A DNA stretch of 64,000 nt from Symbiodinium natans (Eukaryota; Sar; Dinophyceae; Suessiales; Symbiodiniaceae), in the NCBI GenBank assembly GCA_905221605.1, contig CAJNDS010000003.1:874246-938245 (forward strand), given 5' to 3'. A model generated the notes under the pieces. It did no database searches. It was not told the DNA's origin and saw only the letters and a program-made list of their open reading frames with translations. Each line of letters opens with the position of its first letter. Position 1 is the first letter of the stretch. Shown one piece after another: positions 19,425-54,705 of the stretch. Made by a program: the position numbers and the translations under genes.

Positions 19425-20445
19425 AGTCTGCACAAGGAGAGGGCTTGTGTGCACACATCCAGTCGCATGTCGTTCCTTCACACTTTGCTTCTTGCCGGGT
19501 TGAGATGCATTAGTCGAATGCGTCCGGTCCACTCAATAATCAACATGACATGAGTGTCTTCACCATTATCAGATGTCAGTCTTGTTTCCTGTGAACATGG
19601 TAGTGGAACCTCGGATTCAGAATGGTCTTGTTGATGCGCTGGTTTTATAGTTAGTTTCTTGTTGCCGTTTCGCAGGAGCCATCTCCGCAAGCCCCACTTG
19701 CATGGAGACAGGCGCAGAGACCAGGCGGGTGCAGGCAGGATGGAGTGGGGACTGAGTGGTGTGTGTCTGTCTCTGTCTCTGTGTGTGTGTGTGGTAAGGG
19801 AACATATCCAGATTCGTGGCCCGAGTCCCTGCTTGCAGGGGCGCTCCAAATTCGCCGTGCGTCTTCTGGTGACCATGAGAGTGCAGTAGATATTGTAGCC
19901 AACCGTGAAACTTTCTTTCCAGTCTGATGCTTTGCACTTCCTTAATGCCTAGTCATTCTTTGCCAGCATAAGCTTCAACTGCCTCCTCAATGCAAACAGC
20001 CATGCCCATTAACCCAGTCGCTGCAAGATGTTATGGAGCGACGGGTTGCATAAGATTGCAAACCTTGTGGATCTTGCGCATGACGTGAACGCTGCGTGAT
20101 GGGACCGCTCATCATGCCATCACTCTGCGTGTAGCATCGCTTCACAGACTGCGATCACGTTTCCGGAGCTGCCAGGCTCAGGTTTTCGGTGACACGGGCA
20201 ACCAGAGACAGCCATTGGCAGATTTGACAGCGCCTGGATTTGTCCATTGCACTGAGCGTCAGTCCTCATGGCAATCAGCCATTCCTATAGTTTGACAAGC
20301 CAAGCCAACTCAAGGTATTACTCTAGCGCTAGCTTCCACTGAGTCACTAAGCTAGACGAGGCTTCAGCCCAAGCTTGTGCCTCCAGACGCGCGCGCCTCG
20401 TCCAGTCAGCGCTGGCTGGGACGGGCGGGCCTATGCCATGGGAAC

Positions 20446-21180
20446 ATGAGCAGACGAGTATGGAAGCTCCAAGACTTCGTAGCGCACACAGGCAGGTGGC
20501 CAGAAAGCTCATAGAGGTAGCAAGCGCGATTAGATTCCCGAGCGCAAGTCTTCCAGGTCGAGTACAATGTGCTCGACTTGGCGAGAAGTCTGGTCAAGTC
20601 GCCTGGCACATGTTTTGCTTGCATACACCTGCACGGCAACGGTGGTTTCGAGCTGCCGTGTCAGGTTCATGGGTGCTTTCTAAGGTTCTTGCGACCGGGG
20701 GAGATGACAAGCGGGTGAACATTTGGAAGGCCTCCATTCCGCTAAACGTTTCAGGCTTTTCGGGCAGCGCTCTCTGTGGCAGCGAAGGCATCGCGGAAGC
20801 CCAGTTGTGCTGTGCTATGCCGTGCGAGGTGGGCAAACCCAATGCCATGATGAGCCTAACTGGCCATACCAGCTCCGTGGAGTTCTCAGGGAAAAATTCC
20901 CAGTTTTGAATCCGAGTGAAGGCTGTCCTGTTGGTGTCTCTGTGCACATTGGTTCAGAATACGGTCATGGCGTCGAGGTCGAGTGCTTGGTTTTTGACAA
21001 GCAAGAGGAGGTCTTGATTGTCGGCTGTGCTGGTGGCTCGATGCAGTGCTGGAACCTGGAATACAGGACGCCCCCCCCCCCCATGTGTCACTACCATCCG
21101 CATCACTTCCCGTGATTGACAGGAAGATGGCAGGCTCGTTGGCCGGGCATCGGACGGCCTGTACGTGTGTGGAGTGCAGG
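20446..21180 (+). CDS. KATNB1: Katanin p80 exons 1-6 (WD40 blades 1-3)
   Basis: The ATG at 20446 gives MSRRVWKLQDFVAHT with a GC donor at 20492. 20557-20600 reads RVQCARLGEKSGQV (GC donor). 20685-20729 reads VLATGGDDKRVNIWK (GC donor). 20829-20876 reads VGKPNAMMSLTGHTSS (GT donor). 20978-21066 reads VECLVFDKQEEVLIVG.. CWNLEY with a GA donor at 21067. 21123 onward reads KMAGSLAGHRTACTC. Every junction keeps phase, and the first blade follows katanin p80 nearly residue by residue. The end of the last exon is uncertain within about 10 bp. A C-run of 12 at 21071-21082 follows the GA donor. Confidence 0.88.
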
Positions 21181-24100
21181 TCCCAGCACTGCTAGGTGCT
21201 TCAAAGGTCTCTAGGAAAGCTGGTGTGAGAAAGCACAAAACACGTGTGCAGAGCTGACAGAGGGGTAGCGAGGTTCCACCCCTATGGCGAGTTCTTCGCA
21301 TCGGGTTCGAATGACACGAACTTGCTCCTTAGCCACATAGAGAGAGGGGAGGAGAGAAAGAGAGAGAGAGAGAGAGAGCGACTTCAGACCTGACGGAGAA
21401 AGAAAAGCACACGGAAGAACGGGGCGAGACGGAAGAGGAGGAACCGAACCACGAGGGCGACAACGTGAAGACCCAGATGAGTAAGAATGGAGTAAGACGG
21501 AGTGAAAAGCTCAAGATGCTTTCGGGGCAACAAACAGTCTCCGTAAGGAGAAGTCAAGAGAACCAAGGGCCACGGTTGTCGGGGGATTGTGGACGTTTCG
21601 GCAGGTTTGGAGAAGGGCTTTGTGGAAGACCTGGCAAACCCCCCTAAGAACGGGCACTTGTAGGGGACACTTAAGTTTGTGTAACGGGGGGTACACCGGG
21701 GGTCACGAGGTGCAACACTCAACAGTGTTTGTTTCAGCTCTCAGGGTGCTTGCTGTGGTGGGGTGAGGCCATGTCGGGAAAATAGCGACCCCTGGGAAAG
21801 AGTTTCAAATAACAATGGATTCGGGCGCGCCCCGCGTGCGGAGCGGCCCAGTAGGGTTCAGCTCAGCAGCAGAAGAAGAGAGCGAGAGAGCGGGAGAAAA
21901 AGAGAGACAGAGAGAGGGAGATCGGTGGTGTGTCAGCCGAGCTTTCAACCCTCGTTGCACCTAGCTGGGGGTTTCACACGAGACCGGAACTTCGGGCGCG
22001 CTAGCGCGCGGGGGCCCGCGGGCCCTCAAGCCCAGCAGAAGAAGAAGAAGAAGAAGAAGAAGAGGGAGAGAGAGAAGGCGTCCCTCTCCAAATGGAGGGG
22101 GTTAGGCGCGCAGAAAGAAAGATGGGGTGAGTGGTTGATCCGTCGGGCGTGTGCATGTAAACCGCACGTGTAGCTTAGGAAGTCAGCCTTCTCTGTCCCG
22201 TCTACCCTGCGGGTGGTGGTCGATTGGAACCGAAGAAGAAGAAGCAGAGCCGTAGCCATTTTGGCTCAAGTTTTCGGCCCAAGGAGTAGCCTGAGGGAAG
22301 TTTCGGAGGTCTCAGCCTTCCTAGCCTGGTAGCCAGCCTAGGACAGTTTGCCCAGAGGTGCCTTCCTCTTAGCCATGGCCCCCCGCGAGTACATCTGTTG
22401 CAGTGGTACAAGCTGCACAGGATGGATTTGGGCGGACAAGGCTAAGCAGAACCAGCTCTGCAAGAAGTGCAGAACACCATGGGCAAACAGCATTCGCAAG
22501 GCGAGACAGAACTGGAGCCAGTGGAAGCCACAGTGGCCTACGGTCGCTGAGGCAGCTTACTGGCAGCCACCGAAGAAGCCCAAGACTCCGAAAGCACCAC
22601 TGCCGAACAAGGTCCTGCAAGCCCTTGGAGTGGCGTGGGACAGTGTGCCTGAAGAGGTGCAAAAGAACCTCAGGGAGGCAGGGTACAAACCACCCAAGGC
22701 ACAGGTCAAGGAAGAGGTGGACGATCTCACAGACCTGTGCCAGAAGCACGAAGCCGCCCTGCCGGAGGAGGTCAAAGCCTACCTGAAGGGCCTCAAGGCC
22801 AGCCAGGAGGTGACGCCCTCCCAAGCTGCAAGCCAGGCCAGCCAGAGCTGGCAAAGCGCAGCTGGCAAGCTCAAGCACATTGCTGATCAGAAGATTGGCC
22901 TGCAGAAGCGCATTGACATGGCGAAGGAGTCATTAAGGCAGCTTCTACAAGAAATGATCGTGCTGAATGAGCAGGCCGAGAGGGCACAGAAGGCAGTCGA
23001 AGCAAGCTCAGGCCTGCTCAAGGAGAAAGTCTTCTGCGAATCCGCTGCGGACATGGAGGTCGACAGCATCCTCCATGAATTGGGGGTCAGCCTCAACGAG
23101 GAGCAAGAAAAGAAACTCCATGAAATTAAAGCGGAGAGAGAAGCAAAGAGGCGTCGCACACAGGAGGTCCCCACCCCTCCAGGCCTTGAGGAGCGGTGGC
23201 CGAGGGACTCGGCGTGTGGGGCCTGGAGCCCCAAAGCAAGGGCCCCGCAGAGCCAATGTGCGACCCCAGCCCAGGGCTGGAACACATGCTGCGAACTGCC
23301 CAGCAGTTCCTAGTTGCGTGTGCTGAATATTACGAGCAAGGTGCTCACATCAATCTACATGGGAAAAGATTGAGGGAGGCCTTGGGGAAGCAACTTACTG
23401 CAAACAGCAGTGGTTGTGAACAAGGCTGGCAGAAGCCCAGCTACTTTTGTCGGCCTAGAAAGGAGTCGCCAGAAAGCGTTCCGATCACAGGGCCAAAGTT
23501 TTTTAAGCTGGACCTCACAGATGATGAGGCACCAGCAGAAGGCGAACAAATGAAGCCATCGTGGGAGGTGAACCCTGATGGGCACCCTCTGGTTACCCAA
23601 GGCGCCTCCCCGACACTATGCAATGATTCAGCCCAGAAGGTGACACCTTCCCTCTGCAGCCCAGATGACTTGGGTTCGGAGATGACATGGCAGGAGGTGG
23701 TCAACCTCCTGGAAGATCCAGCGAGCCCCTTCCAGGCGAAGGAAGCCACCCTTTTAAGCTTCATCGAAGCCCAAGAAGAGGTGATGGCGGAGGACTCCCT
23801 GGCCTGGGGTTGGTGCAGGATGGTCCTGCACGCCTTAGAACAAGGAGAGGATGTCACCGGGAAAGCTATTCAACAAGCAAAGGAGGTGATAGCCTCTGAG
23901 ATCCCAAAGAAGGAAGAGTCCCTGACACCAGAACAGGTGCTGGGTCAGCAGGAACGAGAGGAAGACCCTACCCGAAGAGCCCAGCCAGGAGAAGGTTGAA
24001 CCTTCCGCCTCGCCTGACCAGTATCTAGGTATCATGAGTGCCAATGTCACCAGTTTCAACAGCGGGGCACTGGAGTGGGTGACCTCCTCCAAAGCCAAGG

Positions 24101-27100
24101 TGGTGTGTCTGCAGGAAACCCACCTCACACCGGAAATGCTGCATGGCAGGAGAGCCACACTGCAAGCCCTAGGATGGGATCTCTATGCTGAGCCGGCCTC
24201 CTTGTCGGACAAGGGCACAAGGTTGGGGGGCACTGCTTGTGCATTTCCCAAAAATAGCGGAGTGTGGCAAAAAGCCACCTACCAATGCAAAGGGGCAGGC
24301 TACACAGCTGTGGGTCTGAGACAAAGACGATGGGACTACACGATCGTGTCCCTGTACCTGAGGGACACGGAAGGCCTAAATGGTCCCACGAATGCAGAGG
24401 TGCTATCCTCTCTGGTGGCTTTCGTAAGAACCCTCCCGGAACCCTGGATCATCCTGGGAGATTGGAACCTGGACCCGACCGAAGTTCAGGACACAGCACT
24501 GATTCAGGTGATGAGGGGGAGGATGGTAGCCACTGGAGGCTACATGCAACCATGGGGCGGAGCTGGATTTTGGGGTTGTGAGTCGGAGCCTGGAAGCCCT
24601 GATGGATCTGTCTGTGACCTGGGCAGTCCCGTGGAAACCACATGCAGCCTTGCACCTCAAAGTCCAGGACGGTGCCAGCGAATGGAAGTCCTGGAAGCTT
24701 CCCCAGTTCCCGAAGCTCACGGCAGACCTCAAAAACCAAGAATGGCGAGAGGCAACCCTCCCACTTCGCCATAATGGACAGGACCTGTGCCCAAGAGGAC
24801 CAGAGCACCTGGCAACTGGCAACCTGGGCGGCCAGCCCCCCAAAGGCTCTGAAGTGGGCTGGTGGGCACGAATGGCCAGAATCCTGGAGGAAGTGCCCGC
24901 CTCCCAGCAGCACCTACCGGACCTAGGCCCCCTCCAAACCTGTCAAGACATTGCTGAAGGAACTGACTTCCTCACAGAACTTTACAAGCAATGTTCAGCA
25001 AAAGAACCACAGTGGCGGTCTTTGAGTGTCGCTGCCAGGCACAAGGAGGCGGCCCTCCAGATGCAGAGAGCCAAGGAGCAGCAGGCCCAGTACAAGGACT
25101 GGCTCCAAGCGGGATTGGCGAAAGGGATGAGACCTCTCTATAGTTTCTCTCAAGAAGAGTGAGAGAGTCCTAGATCGGCCCTTCCAAAACCTCCCAGGCG
25201 AAGAGCGCCCAGGGGCCAGGAGGAAGCAGTGGGTCGCAATTTGGGGAGAGGTAGAATGCTCCCCCCCGATCGGCCAGACCCTGCTGGATGCAGCCAAAGC
25301 CTCCCCGCTGTTCAAAATAACAGCAGAGGTGCTCGAGGCCATCCTCAAGAATGTCACCGACAAGGCAGGAGGTCTTGATGGGCTCACCTATGCTGCCCTC
25401 AAAAACCTCCCTGGGCCGGCCTATGAGCAGTTCACCCAAGTCCTGAACTTGGCTGAAACCACAGGAGTGGCACCACAGCACTGGCAGGCGCACCATGTGG
25501 CACTCCTGCCCAAAAATGCTGACATAGAAAGGCCCATAACCCTCACATCCATCACCTACCGGCTTTGGTGCTTCTGCAGAGCACAGGTCGTCAAGAAATG
25601 GATGCGAGAAACTGCAGAGAGGTTCCCATGGGATAAAGCCTCCCCGGGTAACACTTGTCTAGAAACAGGCATGCAGCGACTCCTGAGAGGAGAGGTTAGC
25701 CGCGCAGCCAACAAACATGCCTGTGCGGTCCTGTTGGACCTGCAGACTTTCTATGACAGTGTTAATTGGACCAAATTGGAGGAGAGGATAGTGGCGACCG
25801 GCTTCCCGCCAGCTATAGCCCTCCTGGTCATGCAAGTATACCGGGGAACGAGATATCTCGTGGCAGAGGATCTCCTTTCGGAGGGGATCCTCCCTGCGAG
25901 GGGCATCCTCGCAGGGTGCCCGTTCGCAACAATGATGGCAAGGGTTTACCTCCAACCCATAATGCAAGAAGCCGCTCAGCTCCGAAATATCACCGCCTTA
26001 GACACCTGGGTGGACGATATCGGAGCGGATTTCGAGGCACGATATCCTGAGCAGGCAGCTTTTGCGGTTTATGAAGGTTACAAAACCCTTCGCCGGCTTC
26101 TGGAAGGTAGCGACCTCCGTCTGTCCCTTAAGAAAACAGGCTTCCTGTGCACCACTGCAGAAGCTAGAAGGGAGCTACAGAAGCTGCGCAAAGATGGGGA
26201 CCCGGCTATCTGTGATAGCATGAAGGATTTAGGCCTGGACTGTGCCCTGGGTCGGGTCCGAAGGGTCAAGGTGCAAAGAGCCCGAAGGCACAAAGCGGGC
26301 AAAAGACAGAAGAAGTTAAAACAACTGAGAGTCCCGAGTGTGCCGGCCAAGGTCCGCCTCTTCAGAGGAGGGGTTGCCTCCGTCCTTACTTGGGGCCACC
26401 AAGCCCAGGGAATGCCACCCACCCGGAGACAGAAGCTCCGGACTGCCCTGGCTGAACAGTGTGGCAGACAGAAAATGGGCAACCTAGAGGTGGCTCTGTC
26501 CTCTGTAGGAGACAGGTACCAGGATCCGGGTCGCACCATGATGGTCCAGCAAGTTGAAGCCTGGTTCCAGCTCAAGAAGAGGTGGGCCGGCAAGGAAGAC
26601 CTGCTGGAAAGAACCTGGGGCCTCACAGTCCAAAAGCTGGAAGAAGCCGGCAGCAGGTGGCAAATGGTAAGGGGCCCTCTGGCAGCCACAGTTGCATACC
26701 TGCTTGACCTGGGTTGGCAGCCTAGAGGCAGTGATGAGTGGCTGGACACCCAGGGCACCAGACACACCATGCACACCCCACAGCAGGAGTGTCGTGTCCT
26801 AGACCTCCTCCAGCAAACATATCAGAAAGACGTGGATCGCCGCATCGCCACCGGCCTCGCTGCCCCTGAGCTAAAGGAGGGAGTCGACTGGACGGTAGGG
26901 AGGAAACTGCTGGGGGGTTTTAAGAAAGAAGGGCGAACCACGAAAGCAGCTGCCCTGAGGTGCGTCTGGCAGGGTGCCTTGGTTTGCAGCCAAAACTCTG
27001 CTGTCAAAGTGTGCCCCCGATGCCACGAGGAAGCAGATTGGGAGCATGTCCTCCTGGATTGTGCCTGGTGGGAGGCCCAAAACTGGGAGTTGCCAACATG

Positions 27101-29065
27101 GTTCCAAGAAGGCAGGGCCCAAGGCCCGAGATCACTGTGGACCAGGGGCCTCCCGCCCAAACCCAAATGGGAGGTACAGCCTCCACAGGAGGACAATCCC
27201 ATCTTTCTGGGTATATGGGCAAACAAAGAGGCCCTCAATGACCCGGAGCTTGTGTATGGCACTGATGCTAGCGGGGGGCCCTATACGGCGGACCCGAGAC
27301 TCCGGCAGGTGGCATATGCAGTAGTAGCCTGCAAGAAACAGGGCCAAGAATACGTCCAGGTAGGAGCAATCGTAGGCCAAGTCCCTGGACCACAGACGGT
27401 TTTTCGGGGGGAGCTGTATGCCGTTTTGCAGCTGGCCCGTTATACCGAAGGCCCTATTGACACGACACTAGACTGCCTTGGTGTCCCGAAACGAGTCCGC
27501 AGCCCAAAGCCGGGCAAGACCCACGGTGACATCTGGTGGGAGCTGCAAACCACAGATGTCAACCGCCTCAAAATGAAATGGGTTCCATCCCATGTTTCAG
27601 AGGAGGAGTTCCTCCGGAAGGTGGGTGCGGAAAACTCGTGGAGACAGCAGGTCAATGACCTGGTGGACAAGCTGTGTGGGGAAAAAGCGGCCGAGCTGGC
27701 CCACCCTGCTGTCCGGGCAGCCAGTCAGTACCAGGACCATTGCAGCAAAAAAGCACAAGAATTCCTGGCGAGCAGGGCGGAAAAGATCCTTACTGCCATT
27801 GGGGAAAATCAGCACCCCGTGTATAAGGTCTTCCTGCAGGAAAAGCAGGCTCGCAAGAGCAACGAGGCCACCTCCAGGCCCTGCAAAAAGCGCATTGGCT
27901 CCAACATAGGGAGAGGCCACATCACCACCCAACAGGAATGGTTCCAGGAGCTGGTCCGGACCAAACCTGTGCATGCGTGGGAATGGGAAGGTCTCAACCT
28001 CCGGTGTGCTCAGTGTCAACTTAAACTCCTGCACACAAAGAACCGCAAAACCTTGGAAGCACTGGCAGCGCACCAATGCACACACCAAGGCAGAGTGACG
28101 GTTGAAGGGGTACATGTTACACATGTTTTAAAGCTGCTAGGGGACAGACAACTGTGGGTCTGCGAAGGTTGTGGTGGACAGTTGTCCTTGAAGACTAAAA
28201 ATGTTTCGCAAAAACTTTCAGTTGCATGCAGTTTTAAAAAGGACCCCAGGTGCAAGGCGCAGTTTAAGCCCGAGCCAACCAATGCCATCCGCAGCCTCTT
28301 TCAGCAGGTGCAAGGGACAGCCCAAGTTGCAGCAGACCCCCTGTGCAAGATCCCTGAAGGCACCGGCAGCTGAAGCAACCTAGGAGGTTGCATCCTCCCA
28401 GTGAGGATAAAGTGAAAGTCATCCTCGCTACCAGAGAAACCACCCCTGACCGATCCCCTCTAACAGCCTGCGCCAGGTGCACCAGCGGCCTTGAGGGAAC
28501 TTTTTGTCAGGAGGTTTAATCCTCTCATGAGGTATCACCCTCTGGTAGCATCCCAAACGAGGATGATGGAGTCGAGGTTCATCCTCGCTGCCAGAGAACA
28601 CACCCCTGGCCGATTTCCTCTCACAGTTTGCACACAGTGCACCAGAAACCTTGAAAAATGTTTTGCCAGGAGGTTCAATCCTCTCATGAGGTATCAACCT
28701 CTGGTAGCATCCCAAAGAGGATGATAGCTTAGGAGGAGGTGATATCCCTCCCCTGTACCATAGGGCCAAGAGGGCCATCAGATGTGCCAGTACAGAGGCA
28801 CGGTTTTCACAACCCAAACACCAAGGAGGTGGTTCGCACTAGTTCGCTCAACTCGGAAAAAAAAAGAAGAAGCAGAGGAAGAAAAAGAAGAGAAAGAAGA
28901 CAAACACGGGTCGTAATTTTATGGGCAGGCTCCCGAGAACCGCGCTTTTTTTCCCCCCCCCCAGTGCTGTCGTAGTTTTGTTTTCCGCTTTGATAGCTGC
29001 CCGGATCGGATGGGGAGGCGTGCTCTGGCATGAACGGGGGACGAGGGTGATGTCGGGAGCCCCCT

Positions 29066-29133
<68 letters not shown>

Positions 29134-32100
29134 GGTAGGGGGAGTGTAGGAGGGGGTGCAAATCCGCGGAGTATAGAGTACAGAGCTTCCACATGTGCCG
29201 CAGAGCCAGGGGATAAGGTTTGAAGGGAAGGGGGAGGGGAGGTTGCTTTCGGACGGTAGTCGGGGTTGCTGGGGGACTTGGGGCGTTCAGGGTGAGGGTT
29301 GCGGGTCGAATTGCGGATGGGGTAGGGGGCCGGTGTTGACTGGATACGGGCGCTTAGGCGACGATGGGGGATTGGCCCGACAAGGAATGGAGAAGGGCAC
29401 TAAGGAGGCGCCGCGGAGCCGCCAACAGGGCGGCGGCATGTTGTGACAGAAGTGGTTCGCGAGACGCGGGATCGGGGCGCGCCTAGGCGCAGGGTCCGTC
29501 CCTATACCCCAAAGAAAGAAAGAGAGAGAGGGAGAGAGCCGGTTGTCCTGCACATGTGCTTCTCCAAGCCCCATTGCCCAGGAAGATCTGGGATTTACGG
29601 CGCAAGTCTTGCATCCAGACTTATCCAGGCACCTGCTAAGCAACAAGCAGCACAGATGGGCCGTGTAAGAATGTGGGCTTGCCAGGTCACTCGGCCCCAG
29701 TGAGTGCAATCCGTTTCTCACCGCATGGTCGATGGGTAGCGACCGGTGGCCTGGACAACCAGGCTCCTTCCACAGAGCCCGCAGAGTCGTGAAGAGTCAT
29801 GAACAAATACGACTGAGTTATTCGGCTGTGAAACGCTTGCCGGTCTGTGAGCAAAAACTGGTGTCTGCTTGGCAGGTAAAAATATGGGATCTCACAGCTG
29901 GCAAGCAGATGAAGGACTGAGCCGAAGCCATAGAAGGAATCAAGAGCCGAAGCTGTGAGACCAAGGAATGGGCATGCATACATACATTGACCTTAAGGAG
30001 TGGGCATGGACAGGGGGGGGGGCTACCTTTGAGGTACCAATGAAGGGAGCGTCGGGAAGCGGGAGAGCACTCGAGAGTCTTCAGGAACAAGAGCCCTCTT
30101 CCGTAGGTTCATATGACCTCATTCCGAGCAATGTGCTTTACCCCAAAAGTCGGTGTGTCAAGCTCAGGTCTGTTTTTAGGGCCTGGATCCCCTATTGCGA
30201 GTCTAGAGTCTAGACTCGGTCGAGTTTGAGAGCACGCTTCAGGACCTGGATCTGCACAAGGTCCGCAGCGAAGAAGCTTGTTCGACTCGTCTGCTTCTTT
30301 CACGTCTCTTCTGCTTCGTCGCTGGATTTCTGACGGGTTCGATTCGCAGGGAGCTGTGACCTCGTTGAGCTTCCACCCCAAGGAGTACCTGCTTGTCTCC
30401 GGCTTTTGGCTAAGCCGCGCACGACATGGACGAACGAAAGTGAAATTGTGATTCTTGAGAATCATTGAGAGTAGATCGCAGGGTGACACCTGGCGCCGAG
30501 GCTCTGCGGACCGGACGGTAATCCTCTGGAGCCTTGAAAGCTTTCTCAGCGTTGGCTTGGCCTGGTGTTCGGAAGCGAGACGGGCCCCCAACGTTGCTTC
30601 AATTGATCCCATTGTGGTCTTTCCGCCAGGTTGGTGTGTCCTCCATTGGTGCCACCCCTGTACAGGCCAGATCTTTAGATCTTTAGATCTTTAGGCAGTA
30701 CCGGTTTGCACTTGTTGCTTTTCCGGCGTCGGCAACTTTCGTGCTTCATGTGGAAGCCCGTGAAAGCTGCTCGCAGGCAGTCAAGTTCTACCCCGAGGAA
30801 CAGGCGTGGCTGTGAATCCGATGTTTCCTGTGCTAGGCTTCCTGAGGCAGCCATGTTCTCAAAAAGATATCAAGATGGGCAACTCGACGCACAAACGTCT
30901 CAGCTCAATTTCGTTTTTTTGATATGGCCTGGCTTCGTAGTTCGTAGTTTGCATGAGCTGGTAGATCTAGACGCGTGTTTTGTTTGAGAAAGCCAGTAAG
31001 CCATTCTCGCAAGTAACCCAGCAACCTTGAGGAAGAGAGGGTTTTGTCAGGCTGTATCCTGTAAGAAAAAGTTTTGGGTGGGGCCTTCGGAGCGGTGTCG
31101 AAGAATGCCACGGATGTTGCAGGCCGGGGCCAGAAATCCCAAGCTCTTTGCAATCCGCAAATGCAGGAAGCCGGAAGGTTTGATGGGAAAGCACTTGAGC
31201 ACTTGACATTGCGCCCAAAGAGCAAATTCAAACACGGAGCTCTGAAGGCTGTAACCCCTGCAGTCTTATCAGCACTAGCCTTGTTTTCGGCCAGGCCTTG
31301 CAATACAATCGTAGCAAAGAGCATCTCTACCGGCAGCATAAGGCTACGGAGGCTTCAATCCCAACTCGCGAGATCAGTACCGATAGAGACAGGTGCAAGG
31401 CGCAGTTGGATCAGGCAGCATTGGAACAGAGGGCCGCTAGAATTGTGGAAGCAATTCAGCCTACCAGCACAAGGTTGAAGGCAAGAAAACATGTGTTTTG
31501 AAAGCATAGGTACCGCGCATAGATTGCTATATACTATTTGGCCTCATCACGCCGGCACGACGCCTGATGAGCCAGGCTGTGCTCAGCGCCTCGCACGACT
31601 TGTTGCGTCTGCATCCTTGCAGCGTCGGGCGCTGAGTTACAGAGGGCGAGTAGCTTCCAACAGCCCAGCAGGCCCAGCAGGCCCGCCCCGCGAATGCTCT
31701 GTGGAGGCAGTGTCAAACGTTTCTGATGCCATGGATGTGGACTGGAAAGGCTTGCAGGCCAAATGCTTGCTTGATGACAGCCATGTGAGTCTTCTGGTAA
31801 AGCAAAATCGGGTTGCAGGACATCCGACTTTGCTACCCGGAAGAGAAGCTCCTGGCCTTGCAGACATGATTTCTAGGTTCCGGACTTCCGGACGTGACTG
31901 AGGATTCAGGTCACGCGAGACACGTGATGATGGAATCATGGTGGAGTGTTGTGGTGCTTTGCAATGCATCCCCCGCGGCCAGAGCCGCCAGGCCGTATCT
32001 GCGGACGGGTCCCAGCTTGGCTTGTGGGTGGCCATTGCCTTAAGTAGTGTATCCTAGCCGGCCTAGCCGTTCACAACTCAAGCTCCTGTCGACCTTTAGA

Positions 32101-51320: not shown

Positions 51321-52665
51321 TCGCCCCACGCTGCCTTCGGCGCGATTTCCCGACTCGCATTGCGCTCGGGTGCCTAGCCTGGACATGTTGCTCGTACCAT
51401 CTGTGCAGTGCGCAGTCAAAGTGTTGCAACATGTTCCACCGAAAAGGAGACGCTGCCAATCTGTTTGTGCAAGGGTTGGGACCTCCGAAGCACAGAACAA
51501 GAAGAGCAACACGAGAACTGAGCTCAGGCGCAAGTAACCTACAAAAAGACCGATGCGGCGGTGACACAAAGAAAGACATGGCACATTGCTCAGTAGCATG
51601 GACGAGATTGCACGTGAGTTGATGCCAGGCCATGGAGCCTCCAGCACCGGCTGGTTGAGCAGCGCTGAGCTTTGTGTACATATTTTAAGCAGCCATGTCT
51701 TTGAATGACGCCTATTGAAAAACACAACCTAGCTTTCGTATTGGTGCCAGAAGAGCTTTTGTTCTTCGGAGTGTCGTGGCGGCCTTTTGAGAGTCCATGC
51801 AGCTTGCAAACGCGAGAAAGCATGAACAGTCTCACCTGCAACGAGTTCTCAGTTGGGGTAACCAGCCTGACGACCAAGAGACAAGGATCTGCAGACATGC
51901 TTGCTGTGGGGTTCTTAACGTGCCATGAGCCGTGGGCAGTCATGAGATGTAGTTCTTCTGTCGCCCAGGAACAATGGAAAGGTTGGACCCATTGACCGCT
52001 TCGTGCGTGAGCTCTCCCGTTCTCCAAACACTGCACGTTGAAGGCAGCAGCAGCTTGGCTTTGGGTTCGAGTACCTTCAAACGCGAGCTGCTAATTTGTG
52101 AGGAACCGTTCGACAGGAATCCCTACGAATCTCTTGCGAAGCGCTGGCAAACCAATTCTTAATCCCTTGCAATCCCTTCATGGATCCATTTAAGCCATGT
52201 CTTAATCCCATCTGAGAAGGACCAACATCTCGCTCTTTTCCAACCAAGTTCACAAGAGCGCGTTTGGTCCCCAGACCCCACAGGCCCCGGAGGCTCCCCC
52301 CAGAAACCAGGCTTGCTGCTCCCAGCCCTTCCGCAGCCCAATCAGTTTTGGGACACACAGAGCACAAGCCTGGAACGTGATGAGCTTTGCTGAGCCTTGG
52401 CAGGTAGAATGCCTTCGCATTCCCGGCTTTGTGCTCTCGTGGAACACTCAGAGACCCACAGAGAGTCGCCCAGAGGTCTTGGGTGCCTAGATACGCGTTC
52501 GCTCGTTCTATCGTACACCCGCCAGTTTGGGCTTCTCGGAGTGTACACTGCAGCCAGCTGATGTGGATCACGCACGGTGGGTAAGCATGAGATTCTGCAT
52601 AATTGACCTGAGCAGACGAATCACCATCAACATTCAGAACCCCAAAAACCCTAGAGCCTATAGTC
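51321..52665. other. No gene recognised upstream of the SPFH gene
   Basis: Open frames occur on both strands (51705-51995 plus; 51590-52036 and 52077-52667 minus) but overlap and show no conserved pattern. ACCCTAGAGCC lies just before the SPFH start. Confidence 0.35.
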
Positions 52666-54705
52666 ATGTCGGCAGCACTGGCATTTTCTGGGCCGTCGCT
52701 TTGTCACCGACAAGTAGGACCGTGCCCGTCGAGAGGACATCCTCCTCGATCCTCTTCATTCCCAGCATTGGGCGGCACATCCGCCGTCCTCGCGTTCCTG
52801 GCTGGCTCTGTGGCATCCACGAGGTCTGTCCACAGTGCGCGACATGCGAAGTCAAGGGGAAGAGAACCATTTAGCAACAAAGTTCGTACGGTCTTCGGCC
52901 AGCTCTACGCACTCCTCTCGCTGCCCCTTGGGGGGTTTGGCAACTTCGTGCGAGTGGACCAAGGCTCCGTGGGTGTGGTTCTGCGATTCGGGAAGTTCGA
53001 CCGGATGCTGGATCCAGGGAGACACCAGTTCAACGTTTTCGTGGAACGCGTCATCGTGGTGCCCCTAAAGATCGCCTGCATCGACGTGAAGCCGCAGATG
53101 GTCATGACCAAGGACAACCTCACCGTCACCATTGATGCCGTGTGCTTCTACCGAGTCCTGGATGCAACGAAAGTTCTATTTGAGGTGCAGAACTACAGAC
53201 AGGCACTGTCCAACTTGGTGCAAGTTACGATGCGGACGGTGGTGGGGGAGAACGAGCTCAGTGAGATCTTTGCTCAGCGGCCCCGGCTGAATGCCCGCAT
53301 CACCGAGCTGATTGAGGCCACCACAGGGCCATGGGGCATCGAAGTGAGCCAGGCTCGACTTAAGCACCTTAAACAAAAAGAAGACCGCTGGCAGCCAGTT
53401 TGGTTGGTAGGTGTTCAGCTTTCAGTGAGGTGGTCTCCTGTGGCGAGTCTCCCCAGAAATGAGGTGGAGCTGAAGGAGGTGCAGATCCAGCAGTCCATGC
53501 AGCGTGCTTTGGCGGCCGTCGCCGAGGCGGAAGGGAAAGCAGTGGCACCCTTTCAGCCGTGTGTTTGGGAGGGCTTAGGATTTAGGGTGAAGGGCCTGGT
53601 GGAGTTTAGGATTTAGGGTTTTGGGATCCTTGGCTGCATAACACTTCTGAACTCATTTCATCTGCATAGCCTTCATGTTCGCCGCAAGTATGCAGGTGTA
53701 AGCCCTCGTAGAACCCTTGTGCGAGAGGTCAGGGTCTCCAACTACACCAACATTTGACATGTAGTCAAACACAACTGTAAGAAGCCCGTTGGTGAGAGAC
53801 TTGAAGCGTGATAACAGTGATAACATCATCAATTCCAGGGCCTGAAAGCCTCGAAGCCCTTGAAACCTTCTAGCGATCTTGAAGAGACCCTGAAAAGCAC
53901 TTTTTTCTCTCCTCCTCCCCCTTTTGTTTTTTCTCTCAGGCGCAGCAGGAGGCCGAGGCCAAGCTGATCCAGGCGCGCGCGCAGCGCGAGTCCGCGAGCA
54001 TCCTGGCGGAGGCCTCCCAGGCGATGGGCGCCTTGGGCCTCCCATTGGCTAAGAGTTTGTAGGGGCGTGTTGGACCAGGGTTTTAGGGTTTTAGGCTGTT
54101 AGAAGGCTTAGGGGCTGTTTCAGGCTAAGACGGCCTTAGGGTTTCAGGATGCGTTCAGGTTTTTAGGTCTTGTGGGGTCGAGTGAATAGAGGGTTGGGCA
54201 GCGGTGGGTTTTTGTTTGTTTGTTCTTTACTGGTGGTGGCGGCTCTGAGAACTTCCGAGATCTTCCGAGACCTCTCAGTTTTCAGGTTGCTTGGAACGAT
54301 TGCATGCCAGGCAGTTTGTTGCTTTGGGGTTTTCCAGAGATGAAAACAGCCCGCGGAAGATGCGGAGTGGGTAAGGGGAAGTGCGCTTGATGATATCAAA
54401 ACCTCCGAGCTTGGAACCTGATCCTGCCAAGAAGCTTGACATTCGCTGACAAGCATGGTGCTATTCAAATCTACAACAAGCTACGCGTGGCTCCATGTCC
54501 AAGGTGGCAAAACTGGGGGGAGTGATCCATACCTTTCGTAGCTTCACACCTGAACGTCTGCCGAGGACAAGATGCGGCCGCCCTTCAGCTGCAATGGTTC
54601 GAGACGCTTCGGATCATCGCCACGCAAGGGAAGAACGCCACCATCATCTTGCCCGACCGCATCGATCCCGAGACCGCTCTCAGGGTCAGTGGCTCCACCA
54701 CGTGA
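52666..54705 (+). CDS. SPFH/Band-7 (stomatin-prohibitin-like) protein, four exons
   Basis: Exon 1 (52666-53352) starts at ATG (MSAALAFSGPS). It has an Arg/Ser-rich leader of about 75 residues with a hydrophobic stretch (SAVLAFLAGSVAS), likely an organelle-targeting region. The SPFH domain follows: VDQGSVGVVLRFGKFDRML, DPGRHQFNVF, NLTVTIDAVCFYRVLDA, then RTVVGENELSEIFAQR and WGIEVSQ. Exon 2 (53464-53538) reads VELKEVQIQQSMQRALAAV then AEAEGK. Exon 3 (53940-54047) reads AQQEAEAKLIQARAQRES, the coiled coil. Exon 4 (54589-54705) reads LQWFETLRIIATQGKNATII then LPDR, the conserved C-terminal TI..P segment, and ends in TGA. Donors are GC at 53353, 53539 and 54048. Family members form ring-shaped membrane scaffolds. 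No second hydrophobic anchor is seen. Confidence 0.88.
53575..54170 (+). repeat. Degenerate TTTAGGG-like words in SPFH introns
   Basis: TTAGGATTTAGGGTG, GTTTAGGATTTAGGGTTTT (53575-53622) and GGGTTTTAGGGTTTTAGGC (54080-54098) occur in the introns. The words resemble the TTTAGGG repeat of plant-type and dinoflagellate telomeres but form no regular array. Confidence 0.6.

Follow-up and report, generated by a model that had tools for sequence, protein, structure and literature searches.

Slamovits and Keeling reportedly described, in 2008, relics of the dinoflagellate spliced leader (SL; DinoSL) in retroposed genes, a sign of mRNA recycling. Many long interspersed nuclear elements (LINEs) have their own promoter or release signal that lets them survive full-length copying. 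Some LINEs target SL genes and have the SL outside the element (SLACS, CZAR and NeSL), and the 5' tags of HeT-A and the monomers of mouse L1 are cases of 5' sequence added or multiplied over successive rounds, with units tied to promoters. The subject here is a LINE in a 64,000-nucleotide stretch of the Symbiodinium natans genome (assembly GCA_905221605.1, contig CAJNDS010000003.1, positions 874,246 to 938,245; hereafter the window) which begins with the complete SL, and the family of copies to which it belongs. Like HeT-A and mouse L1 (L1Md, PMC6454616) the family appears to have growing 5' ends, but here the added unit is the host leader.

That host retrogenes retain SL relics, and that SLs can be multiple, is well established (PMC3229502, PMC6050394, PMC12014239), and recycled dinoflagellate mRNAs carry stacks with units truncated at an internal AG acceptor (PMC3229502). 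The LINE copies resemble these retrogenes in their 5'-terminal SL, complete or truncated, and in their AG-truncated stacks, but the retrogenes are host genes, whereas the LINE RNA encodes its own reverse transcriptase (RT) and endonuclease and its SL units enclose captured flank. The enzyme that made the thousands of SL-tagged dinoflagellate retrogenes has been called unknown, with long terminal repeat (LTR) elements favoured (PMC6050394), and Ty1/copia has likewise been pointed to as its source (PMC3942190). The trypanosomatid LINEs L1Tc/ingi likewise inhabit a host that uses SL trans-splicing and polycistronic units; they have the Pr77 promoter, a hepatitis delta virus (HDV)-like ribozyme and unspliced transcripts (PMC4035085; also PMC8190864), whereas the LINE described here has an SL 5' end and gave no Rfam match in window positions 20000-31000. 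In Hydra about 30% of transposable element Iso-Seq reads carry an SL (PMC12220107); that is RNA evidence, and the accessible text of that paper mentions no inserted leader-headed copies, whereas the present LINE is known from DNA. Symbiodiniaceae LINEs have been described as likely ancient remnants with Kimura distances of 15-40 (PMC8045281); in contrast, pairs of this family with different flanks reach 99% identity (median pair 94.8%, 561 pairs). One study connects endogenised viral genes in Symbiodinium with SL relics and with LINE RTs in their vicinity (PMC10235124). The literature searched, which included PMC11453091, PMC9311404 and PMC7789003 and few subscription papers, yielded no description of a LINE with SL-headed copies.

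The leader at the head of the LINE family

In the window copy the full 21-nt SL is an exact match at 22250..22270 on the plus strand and forms the 5' terminus of the element. It is the sole match in the window at up to 3 mismatches, and none was obtained in 100 shuffles. The 14-bp target-site duplication AAGAAGAAGCAGAG (plus strand) abuts the SL on the left (22236..22249) and the A-tract on the right (28864..28877), occurs exactly twice in the whole window, and shares two A in its right copy with the end of the A-run at 28857-28865. A preliminary description of this locus had reported both the perfect leader and a 14-bp repeat abutting leader and A-tail, and these positions were confirmed. Since the left repeat lies close to a GAA microsatellite (22037-22063), the window duplication alone is weaker than its appearance and it is the other copies that carry the case.

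The genome searched comprised 759 Mb in 2543 contigs. A 351-bp query gave at least 40 scored matches, and 55 five-prime junctions were read by eye, of which 34 came from the first loci and their neighbours, followed by 20 more and 1 more; one of the 35 first rows (L046, C1837:311555) proved not to be a 5' end and was left out of the count. Removal of four repeats (L026 twice, L070, and L024 as the partner of L023) leaves 51 distinct junctions. An SL or truncated SL, with a suffix of at least 7 nt, heads 54 of the 55 junctions, and the single exception (L051) starts one base ahead of the SL relict described below. Because the first query contained the SL, a control pattern sharing at most its last four bases was also used with up to 1 mismatch; all of its 41 places were read and 40 of them had an SL suffix. 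This confirmed that the SL at the head of the LINE is not an accident of one copy, and the expectation that other copies start at the leader, some with several leaders in tandem, was borne out. Counted as exact GCTCAAG, two or three SL units were present at 19/55 junctions (the second unit of L057 is a mutated and that of L027 an unmutated relict; L064, with a unit lacking the last G, was not counted). The exact full SL was found in 12/55 junctions, most copies having a 5'-truncated SL. The whole genome contains 205 exact SLs, of which the LINE family holds a minor share.

Fourteen copies have both ends, twelve of them within one stretch (some internally deleted or rearranged, e.g. L040, L044 and L046) and two (L056 and L060) paired by distance alone. 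A duplication of 13-14 bp directly abuts the SL in 8/14 of these (the window copy, L031, L032, L034, L039, L040, L048 and L050). The least repetitive one, TTATATGGCCATC in L048, abuts three SL units; the others are TTGAACCCAGGTTC (L039 and L050), TTGAACCTGGGTTG (L034), TTGAACCTGGGTT(G) (L032), TTCGAACCTGGGTT (L031) and TTCGAACCCCCCCC (L040, within a C-run and with an uncertain exact edge). For L034, L039 and L050 the longest match is another repeat unit and the abutting unit was read by eye. In L044 a 7-base filler separates duplication and SL (1/14). Thus the prediction that duplications would flank the leader in other copies held for part of the set, with eight abutting (window included), one with filler and five with none. 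For six copies a search at the expected distance for a further 3' end gave one (L093, for L060), without a duplication. In 41 distinct ends, from the LINE and from a partner element described below, the A-run is 5-9 long with a mode of 8 (runs shorter than 3 excluded; L101, outside the 41 ends, has an A-run of 3), and this short uniform tract suggests a defined 3' end rather than a copied poly(A) tail.

The preliminary description had named conserved sequence ahead of the leader as a sign of mere chance adjacency to the LINE. All-against-all comparison of the 35 flanks in the first set extended up to 1500 bp, the remaining 21 were judged by eye over about 60-150 bp, and no conserved element start upstream of the SL was seen in them. 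What the flanks do have in common are target repeats, 3' ends of the LINE or related elements, segmental duplicates (the pairs L025/L026 and L023/L024) and other dispersed repeats. In 12/35 rows the 3' end is that of this LINE itself, on the same strand and no more than 100 bp before the SL. Several dispersed-repeat flanks share one palindromic target (L008/L025, L011/L028, L006/L015, L007 and L017), and the SL begins at differing offsets before or inside these repeats. A target-like motif is present within 45 nt upstream at 44/55 junctions, the window copy being among the 11 exceptions, and TTGAACCYRGGTTS occurs at 663 places in the genome compared with 51 for the reversed control, which indicated a strong association between the LINE family and a rare repeat. 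The preferred target TTGAACCCAGGTTS contains a CAG, and its last four bases are GTTG or GTTC (GTTS), as in TTGAACCCAG/GTTS.

Leader stacks, captured flank and a proposed cycle

Many stacks consist of an SL followed by the 15-nt unit CCATTTTGGCTCAAG, which starts right after the AG of CCGTAG. Such AG-bounded stacks, truncated at an internal AG as in DinoSL-tagged retroposons, were found in L015, L019, L025/L026, L028, L052, L056, L060, L065 and L067. Two consecutive 15-nt units gave 72 exact genome matches (0 for the reversed control) at 56 sites, of which 5 belong to this LINE family by coordinates.

The SL is joined to the LINE body at two points that lie 13 nt apart, directly before TTTTCGGCCCAAGGAG (59 places at up to 2 mismatches) and directly before GAGTAGCC (12 places at up to 1 mismatch, including L057, which is truly of the first kind). 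In a quick tree of the bodies (32 rows, moderate support) the two joining points are intermingled; the tree was built once, includes the long-branch rows L014 and L015 that disturb it, and was used for this point only. The stretch TTTTCGGCCCAAG that follows the SL in the window copy (22271..22283, plus strand) is probably the mutated relict of an older SL: it agrees with the SL end at 10 of 12 aligned bases, and the relict position reads TTTTGGCTCAAG in L027 (unmutated) and TTTTCGGCTCAAG in L057, which are intermediates. Its SL similarity is weak when taken alone (p = 0.036 for the first 16 nt and p = 0.13 for the whole 104-nt untranslated region, UTR), and a search for older relicts deeper in the 5' UTR gave no signal beyond 22283 (p = 0.30). 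Two copies about 8 kb apart on contig C1719, L016 and L022, have different 5' flanks and differ at 1 of 1140 positions (99.91% identity); they share a mutated inner SL unit (TTTCGG), and L016 has one extra SL outside it.

At five places four bases of the target lie between two SL pieces, as SL-GTTG-SL on contigs C760, C1050, C1147 and C1749 and as SL-GTTC-SL on C1884. These are the only ones among 46 four-base-insert matches known to be this LINE, and other inserts were GCTC (five times on C1719, the two that were read being the partner element), GACT (once) and GCGT (once). Given that C760 and C1749 have the same flank, and that only C1147 has a start with the relict, the four remaining inserts being on the direct GAGTAGCC start, we infer at least three captures of GTTS. 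Such an insert is as expected from a read-through RNA trans-spliced at the target CAG (TTGAACCCAG/GTTS), and would mean that upstream flank had been part of the RNA.

These features, read from genomic DNA, point to a LINE whose RNA 5' end comes from SL trans-splicing by the host, a reading to which we assign a probability of roughly 0.88. A genomic copy would be transcribed within a longer RNA starting upstream, and the host would join an SL to an AG at or near the element start. Use of the AG in CCGTAG of a full SL would add a 15-nt unit, use of the AG at the SL's end or 13 nt further on would renew the SL, and use of an AG in the flanking target, e.g. CAG/GTTS, would capture flank; these are the acceptors that the stacks indicate. 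Starting at the 3' end of this RNA, the LINE RT would then proceed as far as the leader or into it, and insertion by target priming, as established in LINE biology, would leave the 13-14 bp duplication abutting the SL, the structure found in 8/14 copies. Each new copy would inherit the SL and any captured flank as its 5' sequence, in the form seen in the copies. The earlier suggestion that the AAG of the leader serves as acceptor for the next round can be kept in so far as the AG at the SL's end is among the acceptors, but it is not the sole one. A trans-spliced LINE mRNA as template is supported, with the amendment that the exact full SL is present at 12 of the 55 junctions and the majority have a truncated one. 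The captured flank lends indirect support to the view that the LINE may need no internal promoter.

On this basis the host leader appears to supply the 5' end of the LINE, and the genome retains a readable record of the rounds in the form of SL units and captured flank. A LINE with copies that reach the SL at their very end is also a concrete candidate for the RT behind dinoflagellate SL-tagged retrogenes. More tentatively, and with chances that we put slightly below even, the observations may be combined into one account, in which trans-splicing takes over from the internal promoter and the 5' ribozyme that other LINEs have, read-through comes from host units or from the preceding copy of an array, SL addition cuts and caps the RNA, the target TTGAACCCAGGTTS supplies a CAG acceptor just upstream of new copies, the SL stack records the rounds, and the same enzyme mobilises the partner element and perhaps generates some of the SL-tagged dinoflagellate retrogenes.

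Alternative explanations for the leader

The SL might have been acquired once, by ordinary recycling of one LINE mRNA, and then been copied as plain 5' UTR, with transcription starting from the genomic SL and no new SL being added. Mutated SL units are indeed inherited (L016/L022, and a TTT variant in L008, L017, L019 and L028), and a review argues that retroposed SLs may serve as promoters (PMC6050394), but unmutated SL units lie outside the mutated ones in L016, L019, L028 and L057, fragments such as GTTS separate SL units, and the two body joining points occur in different parts of the tree, so that a single acquisition is improbable. We regard as still less probable, indeed very unlikely, that the RT jumped at insertion from the 5' end of the LINE RNA to SL RNA or to an SL-capped mRNA, with no trans-splicing involved. 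LINE enzymes are capable of switching templates, and a 2026 paper is said to describe LINE-1 recombination with diverse RNAs (PMC13174262). However, such a jump should copy the 3' part of the second RNA, whereas the 55 junctions show only the SL exon, joined after an AG and often as the same 15-nt unit (no dedicated search for the SL-RNA intron was made). With 205 exact SLs in the genome one might also suppose that leader and LINE are neighbours by chance, or that the LINE had inserted into an SL RNA gene in the manner of SLACS, CZAR and NeSL, with which it has the SL association in common. Both ideas were rejected and retain a negligible probability, given that SL-derived sequence heads 54/55 junctions at many different flanks and that the SL is inside the duplication in 8/14 copies, whereas in the SL-gene-targeting LINEs it is outside the element.

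Several observations weigh against an RNA 5' end derived from trans-splicing. At 36/55 junctions there are fewer than two SL units, and growth is thus unseen in most. A clear duplication is missing in five of the 14 two-ended copies (L033, L046, L049, L056 and L060), and many duplications are inside tandem repeats, where a 14-bp match is cheap; those of L048 and the window copy are independent of the TTGAACC repeat, the latter being near a GAA tract. The inserts G (L062), CCC (L065) and CCTTGG (L060) between SL units were not traced to a source. None of 20 other tandem-SL sites that were read is this LINE, which makes SL stacks a general feature of the genome. In two elements outside the family, on contigs C413 and C2444 (see below), unrelated leaders of about 75 nt lie between the SL stack and the common body; they may be captured flank, the outcome of cis-splicing or something else, and the simple model does not fully explain them. 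Finally, the window copy looks broken, its endonuclease and RT being in different frames.

The window copy, its partner and other leader-headed elements

All features of the window copy are on the plus strand. The first open reading frame (ORF1, 22375..23313) has 312 aa and a Cys-rich N-terminus and gave no significant match in a Pfam search, and a second open stretch of 267 aa in another frame (23196..23999) had no Pfam match above the cut-off. An APE-type endonuclease domain (24034..24774; PF03372, E = 4.5e-06, above cut-off) lies upstream of an RT ORF of 1014 aa (25329..28373; RVT_1, E = 9e-08, above cut-off), for which no PDB relative was found up to E 0.1. Between them an overlapping open stretch in another frame (24578..25162) spans position ~24837, where about 75-94 bp are additionally present in 11 of the 20 long stretches taken from other copies (L031, L034, L035, L036, L039, L041, L043, L045, L048, L049 and L050). 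The 3' UTR contains an imperfect direct repeat (28419..28725; period about 150-160 bp, 84% alike), which was also observed in further LINE copies, and the conserved 3' end GTTCGCTCAACTCGG (28842..28865) includes the short A-run. Comparison of the element with the window gave only this 3' UTR repeat and no long terminal repeats. With its endonuclease upstream of the RT, its target-site duplication and its 3' A-tract, the element is, by its sequence features, an APE-type non-LTR retrotransposon. The Rfam scan of window positions 20000-31000 gave no match up to E 0.1 and hence no described ribozyme at the 5' end, in terms of known Rfam families only.

Around the LINE 10 of 44 open stretches were scanned. 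The sole convincing gene among them is an ORF with a Band 7/SPFH domain at 52612-53613 on the plus strand (PF01145, E = 8.1e-32), and a weak WD-repeat-like match at 20343-20906 (plus strand) is below the cut-off; this does not suffice to place the LINE in a unidirectional gene array.

A 1.7-kb element in the same arrays has no long ORF, the longest being 171 codons on the minus strand of the L032 copy. In L032 (contig C1391, minus strand) it extends from TTTGGCTCAAG to CTCAACTCGGAAAAAAAA with TTGAACCTGGGTTG on both sides. Its last ~53 bp match the LINE 3' end at 81%, and GGCTCAAG stands at five of the six starts seen and CCAAG at the sixth (L034), with SL-GCTC-SL in some of them. With an SL 5' end, a LINE 3' tail and the same target in L032, L016, L022, L034, L038 and L102, this element is a probable non-autonomous partner of the LINE and apparently non-coding.

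The 56 tandem-SL sites were compared with places matching RT (best 150 of 2439) and endonuclease (149 places; best 150 of 1079 scored). At three sites outside the LINE family the SL lies 2-6 kb upstream on the same strand, where about 0.08 would be expected; these coincidences were spotted by reading the lists, and two of the sites (C413 and C2444) belong to one family and are hence not independent. Those two (L077 and L097) have SL stacks, an identical 289-bp stretch, and an RT 5-6 kb downstream in both. The site on C557 has four SL units, and a site on C2435 that is 85% alike, with an endonuclease at a similar distance, has two units and a fragment. Both are beside CCCTAAA-type repeats, their common body begins directly after the SL, and the endonuclease domain is about 2 kb downstream of the SL stack, which suggests an SL-headed LINE preferring CCCTAAA-type repeats.

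SL stacks beside telomere-like CCCTAAA repeats were observed at L080/L100 (C557), L099 (C2435), L073 (C156) and L087 (C1202). An SL pair with no body lies between 26-bp local direct repeats at L089 (C1502:768320-768770), and another, also with no body, between 23-bp local direct repeats plus 10 further bases at L079 (C501:102730-103180). At L071, L072, L074 and L086, each beside a GA repeat, related short sequences follow directly after the SL units and are possibly an SL-headed short retroposon.

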